Made by a program: the position numbers and the translations under genes
From: Nesterenkonia xinjiangensis
GTDB taxonomy: Bacteria > Actinomycetota > Actinomycetes > Actinomycetales > Micrococcaceae
Length of the DNA: 64,000 nucleotides
Direction of reading: 5' to 3'
NCBI RefSeq assembly: GCF_013410745.1
Contig: NZ_JACCFY010000001.1
Coordinates: 310,001-374,000, forward strand
In this document: in pieces, positions 3,373 to 39,196 of the stretch
Numbering within the stretch: the first letter of the stretch is position 1
How the letters are laid out: the number at the start of each line of letters is the position of its first letter
Notes under the pieces: model-generated
Databases searched by the model: none
Seen by the model: the letters and a program-made list of their open reading frames with translations, nothing else
What the model was told of the DNA's origin: nothing

Positions 3373-5043
3373 TCAGTTCCGTGCCAGGGCGAATCGGAGG
3401 GTGTCCAGGCCCAACATCCCCAGCTGCAGGACCTCGGTGTGGAAGGCCCGCAGATCGAACTGAGCGCCCTCGGCGGCCTCACGCTCGGCACGCACCTGCT
3501 CGAAGACCCGCTGACCGACCTTGTAGGAGGGGGCCTGGCCGGGCCAGCCGAGGTAGCGCACGAATTCGAAGTCCAGCTGCGCCTCGGAGATCGGCAGGTG
3601 CTCGCGCAGAAAGGCCCGCCCGGCCTCGGGCGTCCAGGTGCCGCCGCCATGCTGCTGCGGGGCAGGCATGCGGCAGTGCACGCCGATGTCGAAGACCACC
3701 CGTGCCGCGCGCATGCGCTGCATGTCCAGCATGCCCATCGCGTCACCCGGGTCGGAGAGATGGCCCAGTTCGCCCATGAGCTCCTCGGCGTAGAGCGCCC
3801 AGCCCTCTGCGTATCCGGAGACGAAGCAGCCGTGGCGCCGCCAGGAGTTCAGCCGGTCCTTGACCAGGGTGGCGGTGGCGATCTGCAGATGATGGCCGGG
3901 CACGCCCTCGTGATAGACGGTGGTGGTCTCCGCCCAGGTGGTGAAGCTGGTGTCCTCCGGCGGCACGGACCACCACATGCGGCCGGGACGACTGAAGTCA
4001 TCGCTGGGGCCGGTGTAGTAGACACCGCCGTCCTGAGTGGGGGCGATGCGACATTCCACCACGTCCATGGGCGCCGGGATGTCGAAGTGGGTGTCCTTCA
4101 GTGCGACGACGGCGGCATCGGAGAGGCGCTGCATCCAGGCCTGCAGGGCCTCGGTGCCGTGCAGCTGGCGGGTGGGATCGGCGTCGAGGATCTGCTTGGC
4201 CTCGGCGATGCCGGTCCCGGGACGGATGCGCTCGGCGACCTTCTGCTGCGCGGCGACGAGCCGGGAGAGCTCTTCGAGCCCCCACTGGTAGGTCTCCTCC
4301 AGGTCCAGCACGGTGCCCGTGAACATCTGAGAGGCCAGCCGGTAGTGCTCGGGGCCGACGGCGTCCTCCTCCGGAGCGGCGGGCAGCAGCCCGTCGACGA
4401 GTCGGGCGGCCAACTGCTGATAGCCGCCCGCCGCAGCGGCCACACCGTCGGTGACATGGGCGACGACGTCGTCGCCGAGACCGGCCTGCCGAGCGGCCTC
4501 GATCAGGGTGGACAGCGCACCGTCGGTGCGCGCGTAGTCACGGCACTGCTCGGCGACTGCGAGCACCTGCCGGCGGGCCGGGACGTGACCGAGGCTCTGG
4601 GAGTGGCGCAGCGACTCCCAGTGACCCTCCAACGCACCGGGAAGATTGTGCAGCCGACCGGCGATGTGGGCGAAGTCTTCGGCCGAGGACTGCGGCATCA
4701 GCTCCAGGACCATCCGCACCTCTTGGGAGGGCGAGGCGAGAATATTCAGCTCCGTGCGGCCGGTCTCGTGCAGGGCGATCTCCAGGCCGAGACGCTCGCG
4801 CATCGCGTGCACGGTCACCTCATCGGTGCGGTCCTGCGCGGTGAGTCCGTCCAGGCCGGCGAGCGCCCGCCGGTGCTCGGCGACGACCTCCTCACGGCCT
4901 GCCGGGGAGAGATCCGAGTATTCGGTCTCGGCTCCGGAACGGCCCAGCATGGTGGCCTCTTCGGGGCTGATCGCCAGAAGCCTCTCGAAGTGTTCCTCAG
5001 CGTGGGCGTCGACGGCGGTGGGTGCGCGGGAGGTCATCCCCAC
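3373..5043 (-). CDS. DUF885 family metallopeptidase-like protein
   Basis: This 556-residue protein belongs to DUF885, a family of predicted zinc peptidases. The signature VYHEGVPGHHLQI contains the histidine/glutamate cluster expected to bind metal and activate water. Downstream FVSGYAEGWALYAEELMGELG is the second conserved block, with the glutamate that probably completes the metal site. There is no signal peptide, so it should act in the cytoplasm. It is the first gene of a tight pair with the GNAT gene. The peptidase function is inferred from the family; the natural substrate is not known. Confidence 0.85.
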   Translation of the reverse strand: MGMTSRAPTAVDAHAEEHFERLLAISPEEATMLGRSGAETEYSDLSPAGREEVVAEHRRALAGLDGLTAQDRTDEVTVHAMRERLGLEIALHETGRTELNILASPSQEVRMVLELMPQSSAEDFAHIAGRLHNLPGALEGHWESLRHSQSLGHVPARRQVLAVAEQCRDYARTDGALSTLIEAARQAGLGDDVVAHVTDGVAAAAGGYQQLAARLVDGLLPAAPEEDAVGPEHYRLASQMFTGTVLDLEETYQWGLEELSRLVAAQQKVAERIRPGTGIAEAKQILDADPTRQLHGTEALQAWMQRLSDAAVVALKDTHFDIPAPMDVVECRIAPTQDGGVYYTGPSDDFSRPGRMWWSVPPEDTSFTTWAETTTVYHEGVPGHHLQIATATLVKDRLNSWRRHGCFVSGYAEGWALYAEELMGELGHLSDPGDAMGMLDMQRMRAARVVFDIGVHCRMPAPQQHGGGTWTPEAGRAFLREHLPISEAQLDFEFVRYLGWPGQAPSYKVGQRVFEQVRAEREAAEGAQFDLRAFHTEVLQLGMLGLDTLRFALARN

Positions 5044-19645: not shown

Positions 19646-20068
19646 ATGAGCGAGAGGGCGTGGGACCAGACGACGTCGGGCCAGGCCCCGTGGCGGCAGC
19701 ACCGCTGTGGCACCCATGGTCGGCAGGAGCCGCTGTGGCGTGAAGTGCTGGGGGCGCGGCTGCGCCGCCTGCGCAAGCACCAGGGGCTGACGCTGCACGA
19801 GCTCGCCGCCGAGGCAGGGATCTCCCCGCAGTACCTCTCCGAGATCGAGCGCGGCCGCAAGGAGCCCTCCTCTGAGATGATCGCCGCCGTCTCCGGCGCT
19901 CTGGGGATCGGGCTGGTGGATCTCACCGCCGAGGTGGCGGACGAGCTGCGTCGCGACACCCTCTCCTTCATCGGCTTCTCCCCCGCCACGGACTTCGCAA
20001 CGGCCCCGGGGCACCCTCGGGCCGACGTCGGGGCGGCTCCGGTGGTGAGCCTGAGCGCTGTGGCCTGA
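19646..20068 (+). CDS. XRE-family regulator, PopR/ClgR-like
   Basis: A 140-residue protein with one HTH_XRE domain at about residues 31-87. The motif block LWREVLGARLRRLRKHQGL... then ISPQYLSEIERGRKEPSSEM is typical of PopR and ClgR, the activators of actinobacterial clpP operons, which are themselves often Clp substrates through their C-terminal residues. Here the C-terminus ends in hydrophobic VSLSAVA, which would suit such recognition. A TACTGT box at 19633-19638 sits about 7 bases before the ATG and no ribosome site is seen, so the mRNA may be leaderless. Two clpP genes lie 1.5 kb downstream on the other strand. Confidence 0.75.
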   Translation: MSERAWDQTTSGQAPWRQHRCGTHGRQEPLWREVLGARLRRLRKHQGLTLHELAAEAGISPQYLSEIERGRKEPSSEMIAAVSGALGIGLVDLTAEVADELRRDTLSFIGFSPATDFATAPGHPRADVGAAPVVSLSAVA

Positions 20069-20310: not shown

Positions 20311-21498
20311 ATGACACCCTCAGCCCTACCCGCACGCCCTGGGGACGCACGACGCAGGTTCCCCCACCTCCCCCGCCTGCTCGGTGCCCTCCTGGCCGCC
20401 CTCGCCCTGTGCGCGGCGTCGCTGTCCGGCGGCACCCTCGCCACGGCGGCCGTGCCGGAGGAGGCCCGAGCCTCCCAGCAGGCCTGCGGCGGCGGAGACG
20501 CCGTGGTGACCGGCAGCCAGAGCGCCGGATTCACCACCACCTACCGCGGAACGACCGTCTACCAGGGCGACAACTACATCATCGCCATCTGGGAGGCGCT
20601 GGGAAGCCTCACTCCCGGACGCACCACCCAGGAGAGCGTCTCCGTGATGGCCAGCGGCTGGATCGGGAACAACACCATCGATCTGCCCAGCCACACCTCC
20701 TTCGAGGTCTGCGGCACCATGGGAGTCGGCAGCACCAGCGGGCGCGGCGCCATCGAGGCCTTCGACGCCACCGACGTGGCGATCCCGCACCTGACCATGA
20801 CCGGCAGCCCTTGGTTCGGCATGCACTTCGGGGCGGTCCGCGGCCTGCACCTGGGTCAGATCACCCTCACCCTCGACACCGGCCTGGGCATCCGCTTCGA
20901 CCGCCAGGCCTCCGACAGCACCTCGGTGGTCATGGACCACGTGTTCGTCTCAGGGACCGACAACCACGGCGTGGAGACCTGGAACATCAACGGCCTGGAC
21001 ATCGGCACGGTGATCGCCCGCGACGTCGGCTACGCCGGTCTGCTGCTGAACAACACCCGCAACGCCCGCATCGGGCTCGTCGACGGGCACAACGTGGCCA
21101 CGGGCACCGGCTACGCCACCTTCCGCATGGCCAACACCGCAGGACGGGCCGCCGACGGCGGCTACGCCACCAATGTGGTGGTGGATCGAGTGGTCGCCCA
21201 TGGCGGCGGTCGCGGCATCTTCTGCGTCTCCCAGTCCGGCGGTCTGCACATCGGCGAGGTGGAGCTCAGCGGCAACGGCGGCAACTCCGTGCTGATCGAG
21301 AACTGCTACAACGTCACGCTGGCCTCCGGCACCGTCGACGGCGGAGGCGAGGTCAGGATCTCCTCGCGCAGCGAGTTCCCGGTCACCCGAGATGTCAGCA
21401 TCAGCCTGGACGTGAACGGCACCGCGGTACGCGAATCACCCTGCGGTCAGAACATCTCCTGGCAGATCACCGGGGACGCGCCCCAACACATCTGCTGA
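20311..21498 (+). CDS. Secreted right-handed beta-helix protein
   Basis: The 395-residue protein starts with a long Sec signal peptide (hydrophobic core LLGALLAALALCAASLSGG, cleavage near ATAAVPEE). The mature part has the repeating short beta-strand and Asn-ladder pattern of a pectate-lyase or GH28-type parallel beta-helix (for example NNTRNARIGLVDG, NCYNVTLASGTVDGGG), with four or more cysteines probably forming disulfides. The catalytic polysaccharide-lyase residues cannot be identified, so substrate and activity are open. Its stop is immediately followed by the convergent stop of the clpP pair. A palindrome upstream suggests its own regulation. Confidence 0.75.
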   Translation: MTPSALPARPGDARRRFPHLPRLLGALLAALALCAASLSGGTLATAAVPEEARASQQACGGGDAVVTGSQSAGFTTTYRGTTVYQGDNYIIAIWEALGSLTPGRTTQESVSVMASGWIGNNTIDLPSHTSFEVCGTMGVGSTSGRGAIEAFDATDVAIPHLTMTGSPWFGMHFGAVRGLHLGQITLTLDTGLGIRFDRQASDSTSVVMDHVFVSGTDNHGVETWNINGLDIGTVIARDVGYAGLLLNNTRNARIGLVDGHNVATGTGYATFRMANTAGRAADGGYATNVVVDRVVAHGGGRGIFCVSQSGGLHIGEVELSGNGGNSVLIENCYNVTLASGTVDGGGEVRISSRSEFPVTRDVSISLDVNGTAVRESPCGQNISWQITGDAPQHIC

Positions 21499-22119
21499 TC
21501 AGGCGGCCAGCGGCCTCGCCGCCGCCGTCGAACGGGTGCTGAGCACCTCGTCCACCAGCCCGTAGTCCAGGGCTTGGGCCGCGGTGAACACCCGGTCCCG
21601 ATCGGTGTCTCGGCGCAGCTGCTCGACGTCCCGGCCGGTGTGACGGGCCAGCACCTCCTCGAGCTCCCCGCGGACGCGGACCAGCTCGTCGGCGTGGAGG
21701 ATGAGATCAGGGATGGCGCCGCGGCCGGCGCCGATCGCCGGCTGGTGCAGCACGATCCTGGTGTGCGGCAGCATCGCCCGCGCCCCGGCCTCGCCGCCCG
21801 CCAGCAGCACCGCCCCGGCGGCGAAGGCCTGCCCCACGCAGGTCGTCGCCACCGGGGCGCGGATGTACTGCATGGTGTCGTAGATGGCCAGCGTGGCCGA
21901 GGGGTCCCCGCCCTCGCAGTTGATGTAGAGGTTCACCGGCGTGTCCGGGTCCGCGGACTCCAGGTGGAGCAGCTGGGCGATGACGGCGTTGGCCACCCCG
22001 GAGTCGATGCCCGTGCCCAGGTAGATGATGCGCTCGTGCAGCAGCTGGGAATAGACGTCCATGGCGCGTTCGCCACGTCCGTCCCGGGTGATGACCTGGG
22101 GGATGGTGTAGGCGCTCAT
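21499..22119 (-). CDS. ClpP paralogue with catalytic serine replaced (ClpR-like)
   Basis: A 206-residue ClpP-fold protein. The histidine (H125 in RIVLHQPAIG) and aspartate (D171 in RRDTDRD) of the triad are in place, but the nucleophile motif GQAAS reads GQAFA, with Ala100 at the serine position; the codon was checked on the complementary strand. The oxyanion-loop motif SPGG is also altered to CEGG (residues 68-71). It should therefore be proteolytically inactive and work as a structural or regulatory ring partner, like cyanobacterial ClpR. Its ATG overlaps the stop of the upstream active clpP (ATGA), so the subunits are probably made in equal amounts. Confidence 0.88.
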   Translation of the reverse strand: MSAYTIPQVITRDGRGERAMDVYSQLLHERIIYLGTGIDSGVANAVIAQLLHLESADPDTPVNLYINCEGGDPSATLAIYDTMQYIRAPVATTCVGQAFAAGAVLLAGGEAGARAMLPHTRIVLHQPAIGAGRGAIPDLILHADELVRVRGELEEVLARHTGRDVEQLRRDTDRDRVFTAAQALDYGLVDEVLSTRSTAAARPLAA

Positions 22120-22763
22120 CGCGTCTCCTCCCCTGCGACACGTTCCAGGTGGGAGGTCAGTCCCACCGGACGCCGTCGGGCCCGCGGCACGATCCCGCCG
22201 AAGTCCTCGGCCACCCCGTCCACGAACCCGTAGGTCACAGCCTCGGCCGCGCTGAACCAAGTGTCGCGCAGCGAGTCGTCGAAGACCTGCCCGAGCGGCC
22301 GACCGGTGTCCTCGGCGATCAGCCCCAGCACGGTGTCCCGGGTGCTGCGCAGATCCTGGGCCTGGAGCTCGACGTCGGCCGTCGAGCCCCCGATGCCCGA
22401 GGAACCCTGGTGCATGAGGATCTTCGCGTGTGGCAGCGCTCGGCGGCGGCCCGGCGTGCCGGCCGAGAGCAGGAACTGCCCGGCGCTGGCGGCCACGCCG
22501 AGGGCGAGCGTGGACACCGGGCAGGGCACGAAGCCCATCAGGTCGCGCAGGGCGAGCATCGCCGGCACGGAGCCGCCCGGAGAGTGGATCCACAGGGCGA
22601 TCTCGGTCTGCGGATCATCGGCGGCCAGGGTCATCAGCTGGGTCATCAGCAGGGTGCCGTTGTCGTCGTCGAGGACGCCGTCGAGGACCAGGACTCGACG
22701 ATGGAGCATCTCCTGGCGTGCGTTCTCACCGAACATCGGGGCTGCGGGGGTCTCTTCGCTCAT
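22116..22763 (-). CDS. clpP: ATP-dependent Clp protease proteolytic subunit
   Basis: A 215-residue ClpP with a complete triad: Ser93 in GVAASAG, His118 in ILMHQGSSG and Asp163 in DDSLRD. The SPGGS oxyanion loop (61-65) and handle region are present. It would form a mixed 14-subunit barrel with the product of the overlapping downstream gene, whose nucleophile is missing. The pair resembles the accessory clpP3-clpP4 operon of actinobacteria, not the essential clpP1-clpP2 operon, because clpX and tig are not adjacent and a PopR-like gene is near. That identification is inference. Confidence 0.9.
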   Translation of the reverse strand: MSEETPAAPMFGENARQEMLHRRVLVLDGVLDDDNGTLLMTQLMTLAADDPQTEIALWIHSPGGSVPAMLALRDLMGFVPCPVSTLALGVAASAGQFLLSAGTPGRRRALPHAKILMHQGSSGIGGSTADVELQAQDLRSTRDTVLGLIAEDTGRPLGQVFDDSLRDTWFSAAEAVTYGFVDGVAEDFGGIVPRARRRPVGLTSHLERVAGEETR

Positions 22764-22900
22764 GAGTCCAGGCTCGCCGTTCAGAAGCCCTGAGGAGGAA
22801 GAAACCTGCTGGGGGCGGATCTGCCGTGGGCTGATCAGCTCAGAGCGGCGCCGGCCCTATGATGGAGGGCACCATCATCCAACGAGAAGGAGCACCACCC

Positions 22901-37684: not shown

Positions 37685-39196
37685 ATGGCAGGGCCGAGGC
37701 ATCCACAGCAGCACACCGTCGAAGAGGCCAGGGAGATGACCATCAGAACCCCCCTGCGGACCATCACCGCCATGGGCGGCGCCCTGCTGCTGATGCTCCT
37801 CACCGGACCCGATGCGGGCGCCGTCGAACCGGCCCCGGACGATGTGCGTCCAGTGCTCCAGGGCGAGGAGATCAGCGGCGGCGGAAATCTGGGGGACGCC
37901 GTGGAGCTCAGCTCCGGCACCCAGTACCTGGACGAGTTCTCCGCCGGGACCCTCCACTACCGGATCCCCCGGGAGGTCGACCACTCCACCATCCACATCG
38001 GAGTGACCACGCTGGGCCAGGACGGCGAAGGGGACTCCGTCCGCGTGGAGACAGGCACGTGGGAGGGTGACCTCTGCTCCTCCGACACGATCTCCAGCAG
38101 CGCCGCAGGCTTCCGGGATCACCTGCGCACCACGCATGTTGCCGCCGGCCCGCCGCTGGACGGCGGGGCCGACGGTGCCTGCGGGAGCTCCGAGGAGATC
38201 GTGCTGACCATCGAGCTGACCATGGACCCGGAGGACTCGCGCAGCGTCGGGCAGCCCGTGGAGATCCTCGTCCACGAGGAGCCGCGCCCGGTGCGGCTCG
38301 GGACCCTTCCCCCATCCGACGAGGACTTCGACGGCGGGGAATGGCAGGACATCGGGCGCAACGTGGCCGGCGCCCTGGAGGTCACGCCCAGCCGATCCTT
38401 CGGCGGAGCTCCCGAGCTGGAGCCCGGAAGCACCTATGACGTCACGATCCACCCCGGGGAGACCCAGATCTTCCGCGTGCCCTTGGACTGGGGACAGCGC
38501 CTGCAGGCAGAGGCCTACTTCCCGGAGCCGGACGAGGCGCTCGCCGATCAGCTGAGCGGAATGGGCTCGGTCGCGCTGATGGCCGCCAATCCCCTGCGGG
38601 CCGGGCTGGATCATGATTCCGGAGCCCCGAGCATGAGTTCCTCGAGCCAGCACCGCGTCAGCACCGGGCCGATCCGCTGGTTCAACCGCGAGTCCTCCCA
38701 CGCCATGCTCGCCGGCGATCATTTCCTGGTGGTCACCGCCGACCAGCATGACTCCGGTGCGGACATCTCGATGCTGTACCGACTCACCCTGGACACCTTC
38801 GGGGAGGCCGGCGACGGCGCCCCGGAGTACCCAGAGGGTCACGAAGACGCCTGGCCGGTCTTCGAAGGGGGCGAGGTGACCGCCGATCGATCGGGGGCGG
38901 ATGCGCTCTCCAGGATCAGCGCACTGGGCGACAGCTCCGCCGTGGTGGCCGCCCTGGCCACCGTCGGACTGCTGCTGCTGGGCACCGGGATCGTCGTGCT
39001 GGTGCGGGTGATCGGTGATCCTCGCCCGCTGCCCGAGAGCGCACCGCAGACTGTCGTGCCGCATTCTCCTGGTCCACATCCTCCTGGACCGAAGCCTCCT
39101 GGACCGCAGCCTCCCCGCGGGCAGAACCCCTCTGCCGGGCCTCCCCCTCAGGCGGGCGGCCCAGCGCCCTGGGGGCACGGTGCGCAGCACCGCTGA
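37685..39196 (+). CDS. Secreted, membrane-anchored protein of the kinase module
   Basis: A 503-residue protein not recognised by family name. It has a signal peptide (core MGGALLLMLLTGPDAGA), an extracytoplasmic beta-rich region with IPREVDHSTIHIGVTTLGQDG and a later GETQIFRVPLDWGQRLQAEAYFPEP block, then a membrane helix at about residues 417-440 and a proline-rich cytoplasmic tail (PGPHPPGPKPPGPQPP). Similar C-terminal parts occur in actinobacterial VWA proteins encoded next to kinases. ATG 37685 is selected for its AGGAGG site 5 bases upstream. It converges on the kinase gene with a 4-base gap. A sensor or substrate role is inferred. Confidence 0.75.
   Translation: MAGPRHPQQHTVEEAREMTIRTPLRTITAMGGALLLMLLTGPDAGAVEPAPDDVRPVLQGEEISGGGNLGDAVELSSGTQYLDEFSAGTLHYRIPREVDHSTIHIGVTTLGQDGEGDSVRVETGTWEGDLCSSDTISSSAAGFRDHLRTTHVAAGPPLDGGADGACGSSEEIVLTIELTMDPEDSRSVGQPVEILVHEEPRPVRLGTLPPSDEDFDGGEWQDIGRNVAGALEVTPSRSFGGAPELEPGSTYDVTIHPGETQIFRVPLDWGQRLQAEAYFPEPDEALADQLSGMGSVALMAANPLRAGLDHDSGAPSMSSSSQHRVSTGPIRWFNRESSHAMLAGDHFLVVTADQHDSGADISMLYRLTLDTFGEAGDGAPEYPEGHEDAWPVFEGGEVTADRSGADALSRISALGDSSAVVAALATVGLLLLGTGIVVLVRVIGDPRPLPESAPQTVVPHSPGPHPPGPKPPGPQPPRGQNPSAGPPPQAGGPAPWGHGAQHR

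Follow-up and report, generated by a model that had tools for sequence, protein, structure and literature searches.

In this work, we have analysed a window of 64,000 nucleotides from the genome of Nesterenkonia xinjiangensis, in which two overlapping clpP genes code for a subunit with a complete catalytic triad (clpPa) and for a subunit that has lost the catalytic serine (clpPb). Our results show that in pairs of this kind the triad has been lost on several branches, in the ClpP2-like subunit and in none of the ClpP1-like partners found. We propose that the pair probably codes for a backup core of the ClpP3P4 kind, switched by a PopR-like regulator, in which a dead ClpP4-like subunit would dock the unfoldase and a live ClpP3-like subunit would cut, both in a mixed double ring. 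The features of the locus are the following, in positions of the window.

19646-20068, plus strand: popR-like gene for an XRE/ClgR-type regulator, convergent with the clp pair; the product ends in AVA (possible degron)
20311-21498, plus strand: gene for a protein of 395 aa, between the regulator and clpPb; no Pfam or NCBIfam match
21499-22119, minus strand: clpPb, 206 aa, ClpP4-like (ClpP2-like); Ala100, H125, D175, CEGG at 68-71 (translation, alignment, Pfam, model)
21595-21597, minus strand: clpPb codon 175, Asp retained (read by eye and by alignment)
21745-21747, minus strand: clpPb codon 125, His retained (read by eye and by alignment)
21820-21822, minus strand: clpPb codon 100, GCC (Ala), at the position of the catalytic serine (read by eye)
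21913-21918, minus strand: clpPb codons 68-69, Cys-Glu in place of the oxyanion-loop Ser-Pro (read by eye)
22116-22763, minus strand: clpPa, 215 aa, ClpP3-like (ClpP1-like); complete triad S93-H118-D167, SPGG loop (translation, alignment, Pfam, model)
22820-22834, minus strand: PopR-type palindrome (TCTGCC-3N-GGCAGA, one mismatch), 56 bases from the clpPa start codon

The clpPa-clpPb pair

The two genes are read from the minus strand, clpPa first, and overlap by 4 bases. We located the triad residues by alignment together with the spacing published for E. coli ClpP, S111-H136-D185 (25 and 49 residues), relative to which the aligned His-to-Asp interval of clpPb has one extra residue. The initial annotation had described a downstream ClpP with Ala100 in a GQAFA motif, a CEGG loop and retained His and Asp, and an upstream, overlapping ClpP keeping Ser, His and Asp; translation and alignment bear out both descriptions, so that clpPb, with Ala for Ser, has an incomplete triad and clpPa a complete one. 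It had missed the popR-like gene, the PopR box and the ClpP2-like, that is ATPase-docking, identity of the dead subunit.

Both proteins have the fold and the family profile of the ClpP peptidases (S14, PF00574), with CLP_protease scores of 170.8 and 219.7 bits for the two proteins against a cut-off of 20.2. The AlphaFold2 models reach a mean pLDDT of 88.5 and a pTM of 0.81 for clpPb, and 90.4 and 0.84 for clpPa; compared with solved ClpPs, the clpPb model gives Z scores of up to 28.8 (Thermus ClpP) and 28.7 (a chain of M. tuberculosis ClpP1P2). A phage ClpP-like protease was considered and rejected, the top family matches being cellular ClpP models, with head-maturation models far lower. We class clpPb as ClpP2-like because it shares 49% identity with the second gene of the housekeeping clpP pair in the same genome, and clpPa as ClpP1-like because its best solved relatives are ClpP1-type chains. 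An N-terminal hairpin is predicted in clpPb (8-13/16-21) and is absent from the clpPa prediction, and position 7 (clpPb numbering) is a proline in all 164 ClpP2-like proteins of the set described below. The N-loop of actinobacterial ClpP2 is reported to be conserved, including a proline important for the formation of E. coli ClpAP (PMC4416901).

Genomic setting, regulator and PopR box

The source genome (3.57 Mb, a single contig) also carries a housekeeping clpP1P2 pair at C1:28391-29765, in which both triads are complete; the pair in the window, P1-like then P2-like, is a second one, separate from it. Three genes match the profile of the Clp-ATPase C-terminal family: one, ClpX-sized, adjoins the housekeeping pair, and the other two are larger and lie elsewhere, names being given from size and place.

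The popR-like gene is given with a putative start codon, and its product ends in AVA, not LAA. Its best NCBIfam match is ClgR, with 71.4 bits, below the curated cut-off of 170; a better ClgR match at C1:2869296 is likewise below that cut-off. The gene lies 1.4 kb from the 3.6-kb clp locus that was used for the counts, outside that stretch. Among relatives, a ClgR/PopR-like gene is present in 142 of the 164 second-pair stretches, downstream and convergent in 141, and 126 of the 142 products end in AA; 22 stretches, including the window's own 3.6-kb locus, are without a regulator within the stretch examined. Among the second-pair rows selected on identity only, it is present in 139 of 161. None of the 31 control loci has it, which is no control, since that set lacks the regulator by definition.

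The PopR consensus that we scored is one half of a published two-half site (PMC9775585), and one half-box was scored both in the window and in relatives. Upstream of the first clpP gene it occurs exactly in 37 of 160 loci and with at most two mismatches in 124 of 160; about 3.1 loci are expected from shuffles that keep base composition only, and the control set has it in 0 of 31. Because a popR-like gene and a PopR box accompany it, the pair in the window is probably an operon of the ClpP3P4 type, a PopR-controlled kind known from Streptomyces. There, ClpP1P2 degrades PopR, and PopR drives clpP3clpP4 when ClpP1P2 fails (PMC9765437); by analogy, the regulator of the window would act as PopR, both in controlling the pair and in being turned over by ClpP1P2.

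Relatives of the pair and the sample

Among the 30 genomes sampled from the genus, 8 carry a complete second pair. The initial annotation had proposed looking in relatives for the change from Ser to Ala, and had held that serine-keeping orthologues would point to a strain-specific mutation or a sequencing error. The serine is absent from all 8 pairs (7 Ala, 1 Gly), and we therefore reject both of these explanations; CEGG is present in all 8. Serine is kept in 6 of the 22 second pairs of the family sample (149 genomes), elsewhere on the tree, the ClpP2-like triad being broken in 16 and intact in 6. The pair is convergent with a popR-like gene at all 8 genus loci; its opposite flank carries pth and rplY at the 7 loci where the contig is long enough. 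The 395-aa protein is matched, among the other genus loci examined, in G001 only. In another genome of the genus, G021 (L288, G021:C1:508000-519000), the match to clpPb covers residues 1-96 only and that to clpPa residues 1-207, with no popR match within the 11 kb examined.

Wider sampling, in 297 genomes from the order, 394 from the class and four plasmid records, raised the total to 164 second pairs. The loci come from match lists sorted by similarity to the window protein, with the addition of 40 hand-picked places of the order list, 40 of the class list and the 4 plasmid records; they are a part of those lists and not a random sample. A row counts as a second pair with at least 52.5% identity to the window protein or with an adjoining regulator (3 rows by the regulator alone). 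The control set of 31 consists of 30 housekeeping pairs and L279, a pair of undecided class just under the 52.5% cut; 80 loci from a contig scan with the single protein, whose record titles are mostly of other phyla, are excluded from every count. In 162 of the 164 second pairs the two genes share a strand and the ClpP1-like one leads, L266 and L271 having no partner gene in the stretch examined.

Three loci of the sample are unusual in their setting. G123:C42, from a member of the family, carries two ClpP2-like genes of the second-pair type (3418-4014 and 38051-38656) about 34 kb apart, one of them outside the counts. The Tsukamurella record L173 (NZ_LR134452.1) is labelled a plasmid and has chromosomal-type genes (obgE, proB) beside its clp pair, and the plasmid-labelled Embleya record L172 (NZ_CP108785.1) is 5.7 Mb long; on these grounds the label of both may be doubtful.

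One-sided loss of the triad

The ClpP1-like partner has a complete Ser-His-Asp triad in all 162 cases found, whereas 104 of 164 ClpP2-like subunits are without one or more triad residues and 60 are intact. The replacements are varied: Ala, Gly, Phe, Thr or Glu for Ser; Arg, Gly, Asp, Thr or Ser for His; Glu, Asn, Ser, Ala, Gln or His for Asp. Since the sample is not random, 104 of 164 is not a natural frequency, but the contrast with 0 of 162 is independent of sampling. As 60 pairs retain both triads, a dead ring is not required.

In the control set, P1 is intact in 31 of 31 pairs and P2 in 30 of 31, the remaining one being shortened by a stop. This is L104 (genome G015, 62% complete), whose housekeeping ClpP2 gene is interrupted by an in-frame stop beyond the catalytic His codon, possibly an assembly error. 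A second control, with the housekeeping loci of 20 second-pair genomes and of the window's own genome, showed an intact P2 at all 21 loci and an intact P1 at the 14 where one was found, the remaining 7 being without a ClpP1-like frame in the stretch examined.

The residue after the partner's nucleophile follows the state of the other subunit in raw counts: it is Ala in 86 of 88 pairs that have lost the serine versus 9 of 74 that keep it, and Met in 64 of those 74. The association of a broken ClpP2-like subunit with two partner features (a non-aromatic residue at the -15 pocket position, and Ala after the nucleophile) was not significant over 5 independent tree pairs, and for this reason, despite the strong raw counts, we make no claim of co-evolution of the subunits.

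Tree and recurrence

A tree of the ClpP2-like proteins was built with the motif columns removed, from the 164 second-pair and 10 housekeeping rows and with no cyanobacterial or plastid ClpR rows in this or the following tree. The second-pair proteins form one clade against the housekeeping rows (support 100), within which clpPb falls in a large, mostly Ser-lost group. The minimum numbers of changes are 5 for Ser, 7 for His, 11 for Asp and 8 for intact/broken; on a more careful tree, with 89 representatives and 5 housekeeping sequences, they are 6, 7, 11 and 9. There, the grouping of all 58 broken rows in one clade is rejected (p-AU 2.6e-55). The triad has thus been lost on several branches. 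Losses rather than gains are suggested by the intact state of the basal rows and of the outgroup, the change counts alone giving no direction.

Different groups have lost different residues. Nine Streptomyces-like rows, including the plasmid locus L174 of S. fungicidicus, form one clade in which all nine have Gly for the catalytic His and keep the Ser; in another group the Asp is lost and the Ser partly so. Serines found deep in the Ser-lost group (L145, L203, L156/163/167 and L197/198) may be reversals or retentions. In L145 (match G435:C2:138521-139111), deep inside the Ala group, the Ser stands in GQAVSVG with CEGG, His and Asp kept, a possible reversal.

Selection versus decay

By the Nei-Gojobori method, dN/dS of the ClpP2-like genes is 0.04-0.22 in 11 comparisons (8 in the genus), which share sequences and so are not independent. 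The partner genes give 0.09-0.35, also in non-independent comparisons, and the housekeeping loci 0.04-0.11 (four pairs of loci, both genes). We conclude that clpPb is under purifying selection.

The initial annotation had argued from the retained fold and triad residues against random decay, and our results agree: the loss of Ser is conserved (8/8), selection is purifying, the fold is well predicted and the partner's triad is complete wherever a partner was found. A weaker form of decay would be relaxed selection on a backup pair that is seldom used, the second subunit being on its way out. It would account for the patchiness of the pair, complete in 8 of 30 genus genomes, for the state of the G021 locus, with its cut-down clpPb and no popR match within 11 kb, and for the tendency of second pairs to a higher dN/dS than housekeeping pairs. 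We consider it highly improbable, as the low dN/dS holds across all 11 ClpP2-like comparisons, the fold and the invariant columns are retained, and a single subunit is affected (0/162 vs 104/164).

The ATPase-docking pocket

In Streptomyces, a set of named positions matters for ATPase docking, and the ATPases dock on ClpP2 (PMC9765437). Aligned to these positions, clpPb has N63-Y65-Y85 and clpPa has A-W-F. The latter two positions are both aromatic in 137 of 164 ClpP2-like subunits of second pairs versus 5 of 162 ClpP1-like ones; in the controls they are so in 31 of 31 P2 and 27 of 31 P1. Within the ClpP2-like subunits, both aromatics are present in 60 of 60 intact versus 77 of 104 broken ones, the pocket being partly eroded in the dead subunits. 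To judge by these residues, the pocket is lost by most live partners and retained by most, although not all, dead subunits. Since clpPa is one of the 5 live partners that still have two aromatic residues, this complementary loss is weakest in the window pair itself.

A proposed docking ring and cutting ring

The proposed division of labour starts from what is observed: the two sequences, a loss that recurs and is confined to one subunit, purifying selection, a popR-like gene accompanied by a PopR-type box and, among most relatives, live subunits that have lost the pocket in a complementary way. Homologues would supply the assembly of a mixed ring, the docking, and PopR control and turnover. 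Housekeeping ClpP1P2 would normally destroy the PopR-like activator, which would turn on the clpPa-clpPb operon when ClpP1P2 is lacking or overloaded. The ClpP3-like and ClpP4-like subunits would then form a mixed double ring, in which the ClpP4-like ring (clpPb), without a nucleophile, would be the docking face for the unfoldase (ClpC or ClpX) and the entry for substrates, and the ClpP3-like ring (clpPa) would do all the cutting. Such a design might also affect the gate, the range of substrates or the response to activators, as the initial annotation had suggested.

Several homologous systems are consistent with such a design. In Streptomyces, ClpP2 S131A is fully active and ClpP1 S113A abolishes activity (PMC9765437). 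In mycobacteria, proteolysis by ClpP2 is dispensable, and a strain without the ClpP1 patch and the ClpP2 serine, that is with forced asymmetry, grows (PMC9067928). In Listeria, hetero-oligomerization and partial binding of inhibitor are each reported to raise the affinity for ClpX (PMC5361862), and plastids can do without the CLPP3 site (PMC6508832). For ClpP3P4 pairs we found no assembly or activity data in the open-access papers examined.

Instead of forming a ring of its own enzyme, clpPb could regulate other barrels by joining or blocking housekeeping ClpP1 or ClpP2. There is a precedent in the ADEP producer S. hawaiiensis, whose ClpP-ADEP disrupts ClpP1 oligomers and replaces ClpP1 in the ClpP2 complex (PMC12607617). 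ClpP-ADEP, however, is ClpP1-like and clpPb is ClpP2-like, and at 162 of 164 loci the clpPb-type gene is preceded, on its own strand, by an intact ClpP1-like gene; we regard such a role as quite unlikely and favour the mixed ring with its own partner.

The Cys68 subfamily

Cys68 is present in 44 of the 164 ClpP2-like proteins, of which 43 are without the Ser. His and Asp are both kept in 43 of the 44, versus 11 of 45 Ser-lost proteins without Cys68. On the tree, His and Asp do not change on Cys68 branches (6.94 changes per column) and change 16 times on the other Ser-lost branches (12.63); the binomial p is 0.0011, for a comparison chosen post hoc and resting mostly on one tree group.

These counts, and the lack of His or Asp changes on the Cys68 branches, would fit a re-tooled site in clpPb, in which Cys68, His125 and Asp175 form a new reactive or ligand-binding site. 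We hold this to be unlikely, because most Cys68 rows fall in one tree group, which brings the pattern close to one event, because His and Asp may be retained for structural reasons, and because 45 of 88 Ser-lost relatives manage without Cys68. More broadly, and still as speculation, the Cys68 subfamily might have replaced its site rather than lost it: the oxyanion-loop Ser-Pro has become Cys-Glu, the serine is gone, and His125 and Asp175 are held over a deep tree. Such a site could gate the barrel by binding peptides or reacting with them, or it could cut by a relocated cysteine nucleophile; together with a ClpP3 ring that is pocket-less in most relatives, it would make a natural, inhibitor-shy backup protease of two complementary half-enzymes.

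Relation to known systems

The nearest known system is ClpP3P4/PopR of Streptomyces, with which the locus shares a ClpP1-like gene followed by a ClpP2-like one, a putative ClgR-type regulator, the PopR palindrome and a separate ClpP1P2 (PMC9775585, PMC9765437). In the Streptomyces-like rows, however, the second subunit keeps the Ser and has Gly for His (9/9), whereas that of the window has Ala for Ser and CEGG, and the window has the 395-aa gene between popR and clpPb. Like the ClpP1P2 of mycobacteria and Streptomyces, the pair would have a P1-like ring that cuts and a P2-like ring that docks ATPases, the catalysis of ClpP2 being dispensable there (PMC9067928, PMC9765437); unlike them, where both triads are naturally intact, its P2-like triad is naturally gone.

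The initial annotation had compared the pair with ClpR, as a one-sided design known from cyanobacteria and plastids. The likeness stands: as in the ClpP3/R core, a ClpP homologue without a working triad is paired with an active ClpP (PMC4673316, PMC7966870), and clpPb, encoded beside a ClpP with a complete triad, would be of the ClpR type, the activity of the partner being predicted from its triad. In the Synechococcus core, however, each ring mixes 3 ClpP3 and 4 ClpR, whereas the homologues of the window pair suggest one ring per kind. The restriction to cyanobacteria and plastids does not hold, triad-deficient alleles having already been noted in actinomycetes: d'Andrea 2022 mentions single ClpP alleles with a deficient triad in S. 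coelicolor and Nocardia, and engineered this asymmetry into mycobacteria (PMC9067928). In a survey from 2008, 21 of 121 Clp-like proteins were counted as inactive, and on both accounts the kind is already known. In the open-access literature we found no report of the recurrence, of the one-sidedness, of the PopR linkage with complementary pocket loss or of a Cys68 subfamily; the recurrence, the one-sidedness, the PopR linkage and the Cys68 subfamily keeping His and Asp are new.

Why do organisms retain catalytically dead ClpP subunits such as ClpR? The second pairs are a natural experiment on this question, in which the docking subunit would have lost its triad repeatedly, through different residues, and the triad of the cutting subunit has been kept in all partners found, a natural counterpart of the mycobacterial strain engineered for forced asymmetry. 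The existence of both live/dead and live/live pairs makes the division of labour directly testable. For drug design, the docking ring of the backup core would have no serine for covalent inhibitors to attack, and the aromatic pocket used by ADEP is missing from the live ring of most relatives; the ClpP3P4 of Streptomyces is reported to be ADEP-insensitive (PMC12607617).
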